Shown piece after piece: positions 8,299 to 20,712 of a stretch of DNA of 33,638 nucleotides (within the stretch, counting starts at the first letter, position 1; each line of letters begins with the position of its first letter). Origin of the DNA: an uncultured Erysipelotrichaceae bacterium (GTDB taxonomy: Bacteria > Bacillota_I > Bacilli_A > RF39 > UBA660). The stretch covers positions 1 to 33,638 of the forward strand of contig CADCIZ010000010.1 of the NCBI GenBank assembly GCA_902801685.1, given 5' to 3'. The notes beneath the pieces are model-generated. The model was not told where the DNA came from. It saw only the letters and a program-made list of their open reading frames with translations, and ran no database searches. A program made the position numbers and the translations under genes.

Positions 8299-8822
8299 AT
8301 GTACAGAATGTTAGTATTGTTAGGGTTGATTCACAATATTGTGATTTTTTGCGCACTTTTGATTCAAAAGTTTCATATAATGAAGGTTATAAAGAATTAA
8401 GACCGTTTATTGGTGCTTTGTTTAAAGTAAATAACTGTGAGTATTTCGCACCATTATCAAGTCCCAAACCTAAGCACAAAGTTTTAAAAAATAGTATTGA
8501 TATGATAAGAATTAAAGAAGGAGTTTATGGTGTCATTAATTTTAATAATATGATTCCAGTAACAAAGAACAATTATTCTATTATTGATTTAAGTAAAGAT
8601 AACAAAGATAATATAAGTATATATAGATTAGAATTATTAAAAAATCAATTGAGATGGTTAACAAGAAATAGAGAAGAAATATACAAGAAATCTTAATTAT
8701 TATATAATCTATATAAAAGTGATAATTTAAAATCAAATGTTAAAAATAGGTGTTGTAATTTTCTTTTACTTGAAGAAAAGTGCATTGAGTACAATAAAAA
8801 CAATGTATTTATATTCTCTTAG
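8299..8822 (+). pseudogene. ToxN/AbiQ-family endoribonuclease toxin, doubly disrupted
   Basis: The frame at 8301+3n carries the family hallmarks: VDSQYCDFLRTFDSKV, LRPFIGALFKVNN, YFAPLSSPKPKHK, VINFNNMIPV and NQLRWLTRNRE. ToxN cuts RNA and is inhibited by ToxI. AGGAGG (8289-8294) and ATG 8299 exist but are one base out of frame with this reading; the conserved SIVRVDSQYCDF stretch already lies in the toxin frame. A one-base loss within about 8302-8315 therefore explains the shift. At 8694 a TAA stop interrupts the frame, yet family-like sequence (LLYNLYKSDNL and RCCNFLLLEEKCIEY) continues to TAG at 8820-8822. From ATG 8299 only a 33-residue peptide is made (to 8400). Intact length would be about 174 residues. 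Confidence 0.8.
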
Positions 8823-10528: not shown

Positions 10529-10546
10529 TAATGTATTTTTTAAAAT

Positions 10547-10570
10547 ATCAACAACAGGTTGATTTTTTTA
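10547..10570 (+). terminator. Terminator after LysM gene
   Basis: ATCAAC/GTTGAT stem (10547-10552, 10558-10563) with a five-base loop and a following T run. Confidence 0.75.
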
Positions 10571-10600
10571 TGAAAAGTGAAAAAAGTTTTCAAAAAGGTC

Positions 10601-10631
10601 TTGTAATATATATATATATATATAGTATAAT
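10601..10631 (+). promoter_or_regulatory. Prepilin promoter with (TA)9 spacer
   Basis: TTGTAA (10601-10606) and consensus TATAAT (10626-10631) are separated by 19 bases, 18 of which are nine TA dinucleotides. Nineteen is two above the optimum of 17, so loss of one TA unit would give the ideal spacing. An inverted repeat ATAAGGTA/TACCTTAT (10638-10645, 10658-10665) lies in the leader between promoter and ribosome site. Confidence 0.7.
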
Positions 10632-10685
10632 ACAGTCATAAGGTAATATAAGAAAGATACCTTATTAGAAAGAGGAGGATATTAA

Positions 10686-11693
10686 ATGAAAAATTTAAGA
10701 AAGGAAGGATTCACGCTTATTGAACTAATAGCAGTATTAGTTATTATTGCAATACTTGCTTTAATCGTTACGCCATTAGTAATGAATATTATTAGAAAAG
10801 CTAGAGTTGCAGCAGATAGGAGAAGCATTGATGCATATGGAAGAAGTATTGAACTAGCAATTGCTTCATATCTACTAGATACAGGTAAATTTCCAACAGA
10901 AGTATCACAACTTACAATTGAGTATTCAGGAGATACAGTATCTTGTACAACAGAACAGATTAATCCAGATTCATCAATATATCTTGCGGATTGTAAAGTA
11001 AAGAATCGTAATGTAGAAGGATATACATATGGTACTGATAAATCACCATCATATACTGCATATGTAGTAGGAAATCAAGTTACATATAATGGAGTAAGCT
11101 ACTATGTAATAAAAGATTCAGGAGTAAAAGAATTAACAGTTACATTACTTAAAGCAGAACCGTTAACTGCAGCAGAAGTAAATTTATACGGTGGGGTAGG
11201 AACTGAGAATAATCACGTTAATATGTATATAACAAATAATACTTCTTCACCTGAATATCAAAAAGCATATGATGCTGGTGTTGCATATTATTCATCTGAA
11301 ACATGTAAAAATTACGGAGACTATGATAAAAGTGGATGTAAGTTAGATTATGAGCAATCAGAAATAAAATATGTAGTAGATGCATGGGCAAAAGATAAAG
11401 TTCTATTAGGCTTACAAGAAGCAAGATTGATAACTATAGATGAATTAAGAAATAATTTAGGATATGGTTCTTCCAATTCTAAAAATGAAAATACACCAAG
11501 TTGGATATATAACAGTAATTATAGCTGGTGGACAATGAGTGGATATAATGATTCATATGTTTCACCTTCGGAAATGTGGTCTGTTAAACAAAATGGTGGT
11601 TTATCTGGTGTAAGTGTTTGCAGAAGTCGATTTAACACAATCAACGCTGTACGCCCTGTCATAGTCTTAGATAAATCTGTACTATCTAATTAG
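10686..11693 (+). CDS. Prepilin-like (type II/IV pseudopilin) surface protein
   Basis: 335 residues. The N terminus has a short basic leader followed by GFTLIELIAVLVIIAILALI, the class III prepilin signal with cleavage expected after Gly and Glu at +5. The mature N-terminal helix would anchor it in the membrane and pack in the pilus. The C-terminal ~120 residues, with SWWTMSGYN and NAVRPVIVLDKS, resemble a repeat-rich 'WWT...VRPV' domain common on pilin-like proteins of gut Firmicutes (DUF6273-like, from memory). GAGGAGGATATT precedes ATG 10686. No pilus assembly ATPase or peptidase lies in this window. Transcribed alone, from the (TA)9 promoter to the terminator at 11711. Confidence 0.85.
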   Translation: MKNLRKEGFTLIELIAVLVIIAILALIVTPLVMNIIRKARVAADRRSIDAYGRSIELAIASYLLDTGKFPTEVSQLTIEYSGDTVSCTTEQINPDSSIYLADCKVKNRNVEGYTYGTDKSPSYTAYVVGNQVTYNGVSYYVIKDSGVKELTVTLLKAEPLTAAEVNLYGGVGTENNHVNMYITNNTSSPEYQKAYDAGVAYYSSETCKNYGDYDKSGCKLDYEQSEIKYVVDAWAKDKVLLGLQEARLITIDELRNNLGYGSSNSKNENTPSWIYNSNYSWWTMSGYNDSYVSPSEMWSVKQNGGLSGVSVCRSRFNTINAVRPVIVLDKSVLSN

Positions 11694-11710
11694 TTATAAG
11701 TGAAAACATT

Positions 11711-11747
11711 AATATTTCTCATAGTAATTATGGGAAATATTTTTATA
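11711..11747 (+). terminator. Strong terminator after prepilin gene
   Basis: Thirteen-base stem (11711-11723 with 11729-11741, one wobble), five-base loop, T-rich tail. Confidence 0.85.
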
Positions 11748-11781
11748 TTGTATTACATATGATTTAATATAAAGGAGGGTT

Positions 11782-12189
11782 ATGAATATATATAATATAA
11801 ATGATGAGAACTTTATAAATTCTGATATATATAAGAATTTTATAAAAGAAAATCCAGTAAATGGATATTTAAAAATTAGAGCATATTCTGCAAGTGGTGC
11901 AATACCAGTAAGAGGTCTTCGAATAGTAGTCTCAACTGAATATGAAGGAAGTACTATAATATTCTATGATGGTTTTACAGACACATCAGGAGTAATTGAA
12001 AAAATAGTTTTATCCGCGCCAAGACTTACTAGTGATAATTTAGATGTACCGTCTAAAATAGTCTATGATATAAAAGCTACATATCCTAATAACCTAGTTG
12101 ATTTAAAATATCAAGTTAATATTTATGAAGACATATTTGTTATTCAAAATATTAATATTGTCCCTGAAGCAAGTTCTGGTGGTTTATAA
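11782..12189 (+). CDS. Predicted beta-sandwich (transthyretin/carboxypeptidase-regulatory-like) protein
   Basis: 135 residues, no signal peptide or membrane helix. The central part (NGYLKIRAYSASGAIPVRGLRIVVS, with FTDTSGVIEKIVL) follows the pattern of carboxypeptidase-regulatory-like/transthyretin-like beta-sandwiches: a 'G.L.I.......P..G..V.' strand pair and a 'TD.sG' turn. AAAGGAGG precedes ATG 11782. It overlaps the next gene by one base (TAATG) so the two are a translationally coupled pair, probably acting together at the cell or spore wall. Confidence 0.75.
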   Translation: MNIYNINDENFINSDIYKNFIKENPVNGYLKIRAYSASGAIPVRGLRIVVSTEYEGSTIIFYDGFTDTSGVIEKIVLSAPRLTSDNLDVPSKIVYDIKATYPNNLVDLKYQVNIYEDIFVIQNINIVPEASSGGL

Positions 12190-17255: not shown

Positions 17256-19115
<1,860 letters not shown>

Positions 19116-19133
19116 AATGCGTGGCACGTTTTG

Positions 19134-19344
19134 TTTACGAAGTAAATGAAAGTGGCGATAGCAATTTAAAAATTAATACTTTATGTAGTTTTAACTATTT
19201 ACGAAGTTTATAGTTATTACGAAATAAAGTAAACGGATTCTAAGGTGTTAAACCTTAGCCCACTGGATATTTTGTATGCTCGGCGTACAAAATTCCTAGG
19301 GGGTTAGAAATTTTGGATGACCAAAATGGCCACTAAAGTGGTCA
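19134..19344 (+). other. Hairpin-rich region, candidate origin of transfer
   Basis: The 250-base gap before the relaxase gene holds no ORF. It contains TTACGAA direct repeats (TTTACGAAGT at 19134 and 19198, a variant at 19216), the first inside the palindrome TTTACGAAGTAAA. Hairpins are: CTAAGG/CCTTAG (19240-19258); an 11-bp stem ATTTTGTATGC/GCGTACAAAAT (19269-19293, one wobble); and TGGCCACT/AGTGGTCA (19327-19344). MOB_V relaxases usually nick next to such a hairpin directly upstream of their gene. Confidence 0.5.
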
Positions 19345-19365
19345 CTTCTAGAAAGGAGGAAACTT

Positions 19366-20712
19366 ATGCAAGAACTTGCTTATTCATTACATTTAGGTAG
19401 TGATAAAAACAGAAAAAATATATCTAAACAAAATGGTAAAAACAATTTAAGTGGAACAACTTCTTTACCAAATAATGCTATTCAAAATGTAAGACAATTA
19501 TCAAAAGTAGATAAACATAATTATAGAAAATATGATAATGAGCAAGACTTAATAGAAATAGTAAGAGGTACCTCTTCTCCACTTAATGATGTAAAAGAAT
19601 TATATTTAAGTGAGTTTGAAGAAGCAAGATTAGAATACAATTCTAAACAATCTAGACCTAGTCGTATGATAGATAATTATTTTGATAATGTATCTAATAA
19701 CGAGAAAAAGGATCTTGCTTGTGAAATAATACTTGAACTTGGAGATAAAGAATACTGGGATACTAAAGATGAAACATTTAAGAAAAGAATGTCTGAAGTA
19801 TATAAAAAACAAGTTGATGATTTAGAAATGCTTGTTCCTAATTTTAAAGTAGCTAGTGCTATTATTCATTATGATGAAACAAGTCCACACTTACATATTG
19901 TTGGTGTTCCAATTAAGTACAAAAATAAAAATGGTATGGAAAAACAAGTTGGTAAATCAGATGTATTTACTAAAGAATCACTAATTAGATTACAAGAAAA
20001 AATGAGAACTTTATGTATTCAAGAATTTAATCAAGTATATAGTTTAGATTCTACTTTAAAGAAAAAACAAAAAGGTAGAAATCGAGATATTCACGTATCT
20101 GATATGGATAACTATATAGAAATGAAAAAGCAAATTGAAAAGAATACTGAAAATTTAAAACAAGCAAATAAAAAATCTTCAGAGTTAAAACAAAACTCTA
20201 AAGATATAAAAGATAAAATTGATAAATTAAAAGTATCTAGATTTAATAAAGATAATTATATTTTATCAAAGGAAGATAAAGATTCTTATATCAACTTTAT
20301 CGAACAAGTAGATAGTACTAATAAAGAATATGATAAAATACAATCTTTATCTAACACACTATTTAATGCACACGAACAATTAAAAGACAAAAATAATAAG
20401 ATTAAAATGCTTACTGAAAATAATGAAGCACTTATTTTAAGAATAAAAAGTTTAAATGATAAAATTAAAGAAAAAGATAACGAAATATCATTTTTAAAAT
20501 CTAAAATGCAGAATTTGAAAAATACATTAGATTATTGGAAAGAAAAGTTTGAAAAACTAATTTCATTCTTACACGATAAACTTCATAGTTGGTATGATAA
20601 AGATGATAAATATATCGATGTTGTTAATGAAATGTATGACGATGATGTTTTAGATGATGACGACATAGAAGAATTAGATTTAAACAAAGAAAAAGATGAC
20701 TTTGAAAGATAA
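19366..20712 (+). CDS. MOB_V-family relaxase (Mob/Pre)
   Basis: 448 residues. The Mob_Pre pattern is visible: an early HNYRKYDNE region, ELGDKEYW, and the metal-binding motif HYDETSPHLHIVGVP with His168, His175 and His177. Residues ~250-400 form a long coiled coil and the tail is very acidic. The relaxase nicks oriT and leads the strand into a recipient during mobilisation. GAAAGGAGG precedes ATG 19366. No coupling protein or secretion genes are present, so transfer needs a helper. Confidence 0.92.
   Translation: MQELAYSLHLGSDKNRKNISKQNGKNNLSGTTSLPNNAIQNVRQLSKVDKHNYRKYDNEQDLIEIVRGTSSPLNDVKELYLSEFEEARLEYNSKQSRPSRMIDNYFDNVSNNEKKDLACEIILELGDKEYWDTKDETFKKRMSEVYKKQVDDLEMLVPNFKVASAIIHYDETSPHLHIVGVPIKYKNKNGMEKQVGKSDVFTKESLIRLQEKMRTLCIQEFNQVYSLDSTLKKKQKGRNRDIHVSDMDNYIEMKKQIEKNTENLKQANKKSSELKQNSKDIKDKIDKLKVSRFNKDNYILSKEDKDSYINFIEQVDSTNKEYDKIQSLSNTLFNAHEQLKDKNNKIKMLTENNEALILRIKSLNDKIKEKDNEISFLKSKMQNLKNTLDYWKEKFEKLISFLHDKLHSWYDKDDKYIDVVNEMYDDDVLDDDDIEELDLNKEKDDFER

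Follow-up and report, generated by a model that had tools for sequence, protein, structure and literature searches.

The window, the whole 33,638-nucleotide stretch of DNA analyzed here, carries a type IV prepilin-like gene preceded by a promoter whose spacer is built almost entirely of TA repeats. The prepilin is a single plus-strand gene whose neighbors encode a LysM protein, an unclassified ORF, and a peptidoglycan-binding protein. The features of the locus are as follows (all on the plus strand):

10529 to 11765 (boundaries approximate), +: whole prepilin cassette, about 1.2 kb; absent at the same site in four congeners
10547 to 10570, +: hairpin plus T run resembling a terminator, at the cassette's upstream end (fold −4.4 kcal/mol)
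10601 to 10606, +: −35 box TTGTAA, from sequence; TTGNNA is kept in every TA-class promoter
10607 to 10624, +: (TA)9 tract, the bulk of the 19-bp promoter spacer, from sequence; 14 further copies have other lengths
10626 to 10631, +: −10 box TATAAT, from sequence; TATAAT or TATACT in every TA-class promoter
10638 to 10665, +: leader inverted repeat ATAAGGTA...TACCTTAT (−7.1 kcal/mol, z −2.3), conserved in 14 leaders
10672 to 10678, +: Shine-Dalgarno GAGGAGG, from sequence
10686 to 11693, +: type IV prepilin-like gene, 335 aa, with a pilin N-terminus, a weak CBM5/12-like stretch, and a C-terminal lectin-like (DUF6273-type) domain, on weak family-level domain matches
11711 to 11746, +: terminator-like hairpin and T run 3′ of the prepilin gene (fold −11.5 kcal/mol)

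The promoter reads TTGTAA-(TA)9-G-TATAAT (10601–10631), with the G at 10625 closing the 19-bp spacer; this is exactly the arrangement described in an earlier, sequence-only reading of the locus, which had placed the boxes 19 bases apart with nine TA units filling nearly all of the interval. The −10 box is perfect, the −35 box matches TTGACA at four of six positions, and the promoter ends 54 bp upstream of the gene, whose ATG lies at 10686. Under a first-order model fitted to the composition of the window, a (TA)9 tract is expected 0.0006 times per window and 0.02 times per genome; for (TA)6, four overlapping matches occur in the window against a shuffle mean of 0.25, a count equalled in 1 of 100 shuffles. 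Promoter-like sites in the scanned host-genome sequence show a spacer maximum at 17 bp (10 sites vs. 1–5 for each other length), so that the window spacer is one TA unit too long, and the earlier proposal that a one-unit slip would bring it to an optimum of 17 bp is therefore reasonable for the host organism. Within the leader, pairing of the stem is conserved in 98% of cells in a covariation check of the aligned leaders; compensatory changes are absent, and covariation therefore offers no independent proof of RNA structure.

The window prepilin carries a class III signal by two models, PF07963 (N_methyl; 29.1 bits vs. a cut-off of 21.2) and TIGR02532 (IV_pilin_GFxxxE; 29.6 vs. 16.3), and its AlphaFold model (mean pLDDT 77) contains a long N-terminal helix spanning residues 11–66. 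A fold search with this model returned no confident PDB match; C-type lectins and a chitin-binding domain appeared at weak scores only. In an alignment of 30 family members, a pilin N-terminus resembling GspG/ComGC is present in all 30, while CBM5/12 is matched by 27 and DUF6273 by 14, mostly weakly. DUF6273 has been modelled as C-type-lectin-like (PMC10743442). Elsewhere in the host genome, contig C57 carries PilD-like (PF01478) and PilC-like (PF00482) genes, both above cut-off, and the same contig holds a short core prepilin whose repeat-less promoter reads, by eye, TTGAAA-17 bp-TAATAT. The prepilins with repeat promoters may be modular minor pilins comparable to those of S. sanguinis (PMC8179133). 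Two hallmarks of a spacer-type simple-repeat contingency promoter are present at the window locus: a pure short repeat lies between the boxes, and a surface structure is the gene product under control, as indicated by a type IV prepilin signal that exceeds the cut-off. In two species, three prepilin genes (L046:4276-4410; L017:856-920; L124:795-860) share a break point, AVLVD followed by a stop, beyond which their sequences are similar, as would be seen had one element inserted into the conserved N-terminal coding region.

The host genome (G000), from an uncultured gut-type bacterium, is a 1.31 Mb MAG of 75 contigs, about 92% complete. A protein search of it gave 41 matches, among them more than 20 distinct prepilin genes related to the window prepilin. 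Genome-wide motif counts rest on pattern searches, and the repeat counts may be wrong where assemblies derive from short reads. Tracts of at least seven TA units number four, against about 1.2 expected, and each lies in a prepilin promoter; the motif TATATATAGTATAMT occurs at ten sites, nine of which are prepilin promoters; the tenth lies antisense inside a coding region and was ruled out. This genome-wide placement in prepilin promoters also rules out the (TA)9 tract as a one-off AT-rich accident. Across the nine host promoters of the TA class, spacers measured from TTGNNA to TATAMT are 9, 9, 11, 13, 13, 15, 15, 15, and 19 bp; boxes, register, and leader are conserved, and tract length is not. 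One of the nine leads into a prepilin cut off after 20 codons. The −35 boxes of TA-class promoters often match at only four of six positions, and a 17-bp spacer was found among none of the TA-class alleles of the two MAGs that carry them (G000 and its congener G004). Other members of the prepilin family have different, non-repetitive promoters; repeat-less promoters at L012, L019, L017, and L169 have other upstream motifs in common, such as CTAGTGTACAT and AATAGTGTACAT.

The genus sample comprised seven genomes, among them G004 (CAMJTE01, SRR12081298_bin.74), G005 (CAMKGA01), and G001 (CACZAH01, RUG12438). G004 contains eight TATATATAGTATAMT sites; at least six can be read plainly as TA-spaced promoters of prepilins, their spacers measuring 7, 9, 9, 13, 15, and 23 bp. 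No TA-spaced prepilin promoters were found in G005 or G001, though the prepilin family is present in both; there, T-runs occupy the same promoter position ahead of the same family, in 12 promoters of G005 (spacers 8–20) and 6 of G001 (spacers 8–27). Four of these poly-T spacers are exactly 17 bp, and one G005 copy combines a full TTGACA with a spacer of exactly 17 bp. Boxes resembling −35 and −10 elements flank the tract in all three repeat classes, being kept where T-runs replace TA, and the host genome itself has one promoter of the G001 type. Runs of at least 16 T are absent from G000 and G004; in G005 all five such loci lead into prepilins, and of the twelve in G001, nine are promoters of the prepilin type, including one whose gene is frameshifted and one located where a contig ends, the remainder being one locus ahead of another protein and two that are ambiguous. 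Two G001 motif matches were rejected as prepilin promoters on reading the loci. On G001 contig C32 (L392:690-716), a TTGAC-T26-AG arrangement precedes a 333-aa non-prepilin ORF; therefore, repeat spacers in this genome may extend beyond pilins.

The sequence-only reading had proposed the single TA-spaced promoter as a candidate slippage switch. With 14 more TA-spaced prepilin promoters in two species and poly-T equivalents in two congeners, that proposal gains considerable ground, with two corrections: the TA-repeat spacer is a family-wide device rather than a single locus, and the likeness to hif is confined to the promoter, as set out below. The family in question is a family of genes; a trait of the whole taxonomic family was rejected, as 63 of 291 genomes match the motif, mostly at a single site. 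Beyond the genus the motif turns up sporadically, and none of 30 loci read there has a prepilin downstream.

Tract length varies against conserved flanking sequence. Two G005 promoters carry T8 and T17 within flanks that are 95% identical over 85 bp, and another G005 group, with flanks 89–92% identical, carries T6, T8, and T10. Of three syntenic orthologue pairs, two have equal spacers (9 and 9; 13 and 13) and one, between G000 contig C6 and G004 contig C8, has spacers of 13 and 15 bp. The length variation seen in this sample is among paralogues and in one syntenic orthologue pair.

On the strength of these sequence comparisons, we consider it likely that the (TA)9 tract is a slipped-strand promoter switch for a lectin-headed type IV prepilin, one of a genome-wide set. 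In the proposed mechanism, replication slippage would add or remove TA units (or T residues in the two congeners), altering how far apart the −35 and −10 boxes lie; the promoter would be active near 17 bp and weak or silent far from it. The assembled 19-bp window allele is predicted to be weak or OFF, and a (TA)8 allele is predicted to be ON. We infer that slippage would be reversible within a clone, that transcription would follow spacer length, and that the products would be assembled into pili with an adhesive role. Each paralogue has its own tract, and cells would therefore show differing pilin subsets. The observed pattern is what a randomly switching family of surface adhesins would look like.

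Other readings of the same promoters are improbable to different degrees. The tracts might instead tune promoter strength over evolutionary time while staying stable within a strain, with no phase variation; all length differences seen are between paralogues or species, and spacers are equal in two syntenic pairs, as such tuning would allow. We nevertheless regard this as unlikely. Pure tracts of 6–11 TA units or 16–31 T fall in a length range where other bacteria show frequent slippage, the maintenance of two kinds of repeat at the same site of a single gene family favors selection for instability, and many of the spacers (7–13 and 21–27) are too distant from 17 bp to serve as fixed settings.

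Two further readings deny the tract a role as a variable spacer. In one, a chance repeat promoter was duplicated along with its gene and the tract lengths drifted without function. Movement of the cassette and conservation of the leader among copies fit this reading; however, sister species differ in repeat type but not in the boxes or the position of the spacer, and functionless tracts would be expected to gather interruptions, which together make drift by copying very improbable. The other takes the tract to be a binding or melting site, with transcription starting elsewhere and regulation exerted by the leader hairpin or a protein. Though the conserved inverted repeat just downstream of the tract and the non-repetitive promoters of other family members are compatible with this, it is the least probable of the readings considered: the boxes bracket the tract in every repeat class, TA has been replaced by T-runs without their loss, and the G005 copy noted above joins a full TTGACA to a spacer of exactly 17 bp.

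The prepilin cassette also appears to be movable. In G004, G005, G001, and G003, the upstream LysM gene is followed immediately by the homologue of the gene that the window has at 11782, with the cassette absent; gain in the host lineage is therefore the simplest reading. The cassette junctions (L102, L105, L110) show a near-repeat, TTAAATATA / TTTAATATA, which could be a target duplication or merely AT-rich sequence. Promoter class and the tree of the N-terminal domain are discordant, with classes broadly mixed, in a tree built from few columns and poorly resolved. In the orthologue pair on G000 C6 and G004 C8 (L007:1498-2500 vs. L317), flanks are mostly 85–98% identical and the promoter and first ~65 codons 88–94% identical, while the rest of the gene (the C-terminal two thirds) falls to 33–59% before the downstream flank returns to 91–96%. 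This divergence between conserved ends indicates that the head domain has been replaced or has diverged very fast.

Several side observations concern other loci of these genomes. A 3-kb stretch of G000 contig C11:1-3000 is 98.6% identical to part of G004 contig C6 (L050, L321), as compared with about 90–95% at other loci of the two species, pointing to either recent transfer or binning contamination. Within the window, a large serine recombinase is followed by an ORF that by eye resembles a plasmid mobilisation protein (17262–20712), which suggests an integrated mobile element. The window also encodes a ToxN-like toxin of a type III toxin–antitoxin system (8349–8696; PF13958, E 1.5e-30); no antitoxin repeat array of at least 20 bp was found near it.

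Reverse transcriptase (RT) genes lie near several other members of the prepilin family. On G000 contig C1 (L404, L012), the order is prepilin, MutS_I-like ORF, bAvd, RT, and template repeat; this is the one locus at which bAvd was tested. Template and variable regions differ there by 13 A mismatches and 2 others. The corresponding counts are 19 A and 0 other on G001 C37 (L405, L128), 10 A and 0 other between a template on G001 C3 and its target on C19 (L402, L163), and 16 A and 0 other on G005 C13 (L406, L125); shuffled templates score far below these matches. Judging by mismatches that fall almost wholly at template adenines, and at G000 C1 by the adjoining Avd and RT genes, these prepilins are targeted by diversity-generating retroelements (DGRs). 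Homology to a C-type-lectin pilin tip of Bacteroides ovatus has been described for some of the proteins that DGRs target (PMC6199706). One G004 prepilin with a TA promoter resembles the template on G000 C21, with 13 A mismatches and 4 others in this cross-species comparison. The window prepilin was not supported as a DGR target, its best score of 12 against the five templates compared lying inside the shuffled range, with the host genome about 92% complete.

Taken as a whole, we think it fairly probable that the genus maintains a combinatorial surface display: dozens of lectin-headed type IV prepilins, many with their own TA or T slippage promoter, at least some in movable, self-contained cassettes, with binding domains swapped or fast-diverging and some hypermutated by DGRs, such that one adhesin family would be subject at once to ON/OFF switching and to diversification of its binding face. 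Overlap with retroelement hypermutation of the same adhesin family would couple switching to targeted diversification. In one gene family, sister species fill the same promoter interval with unlike repeats, which offers a natural replicate of the origin of contingency loci. Because tract lengths are recoverable from metagenomic reads, pilin switching would be measurable in a community with no need for cultivation. The best-known phase-variable promoters with repeat spacers are those of host-adapted pathogens.

The closest counterpart is the hif system of H. influenzae, in which the hifA/hifB promoters have a (TA)9–11 spacer and A-tracts replace TA in some hifA copies of strain F3031 (PMC2651432, citing van Ham 1993). 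The likeness to hif drawn by the sequence-only reading holds for the promoter, where TA units likewise stand between the −35 and −10 boxes ahead of a pilus subunit, and it extends to the F3031 A-tract copies, in that sister species here put T-runs where TA stood. It does not hold for the gene, which encodes a type IV prepilin and not a chaperone-usher fimbrin. The hif genes form a divergent chaperone-usher operon present in few copies in a Gram-negative pathogen, whereas those described here are a monocistronic prepilin family in uncultured Bacilli, and no divergent fimbrial operon of the hif type sharing the TA promoter was encountered at the window locus.

Multiplicity within a genome has its own precedents. 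Promoters of Mycoplasma mycoides vmm and other lipoproteins contain TA tracts of varying number at several surface genes per genome (PMC10502178 and PMC3053259), so that, as here, several surface-protein genes in one genome each have a TA tract in the promoter region; vmm, however, encodes lipoproteins of a wall-less pathogen, not pilins, and the accounts consulted mention neither a poly-T sister class nor any movement of cassettes or link to retroelements. In M. hyorhinis, each member of the vlp family switches independently through a promoter homopolymer tract (PMC10502178). The prepilins resemble vlp in being a surface-gene family with a tract in each member's promoter, though vlp comprises lipoproteins of one family with one repeat type.

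Pilus expression in the gut commensal Bifidobacterium breve is also switched by replication slippage, but at an intragenic G-tract that acts by frameshift on sortase-dependent pili (PMC9187656). Streptococcus sanguinis PilB, a modular type IV pilin of a monoderm, similarly joins a small pilin module to a binding module; the latter is vWA, and the description of PilB includes no repeat-spaced promoter (PMC8179133). Within the partial coverage of the open-access literature, no report was found of repeat-spaced type IV prepilin promoters or of their pairing with DGRs. The mechanism is already known from hif, vmm, and vlp; what is new is the lineage, the gene family, and the species-specific repeat types.
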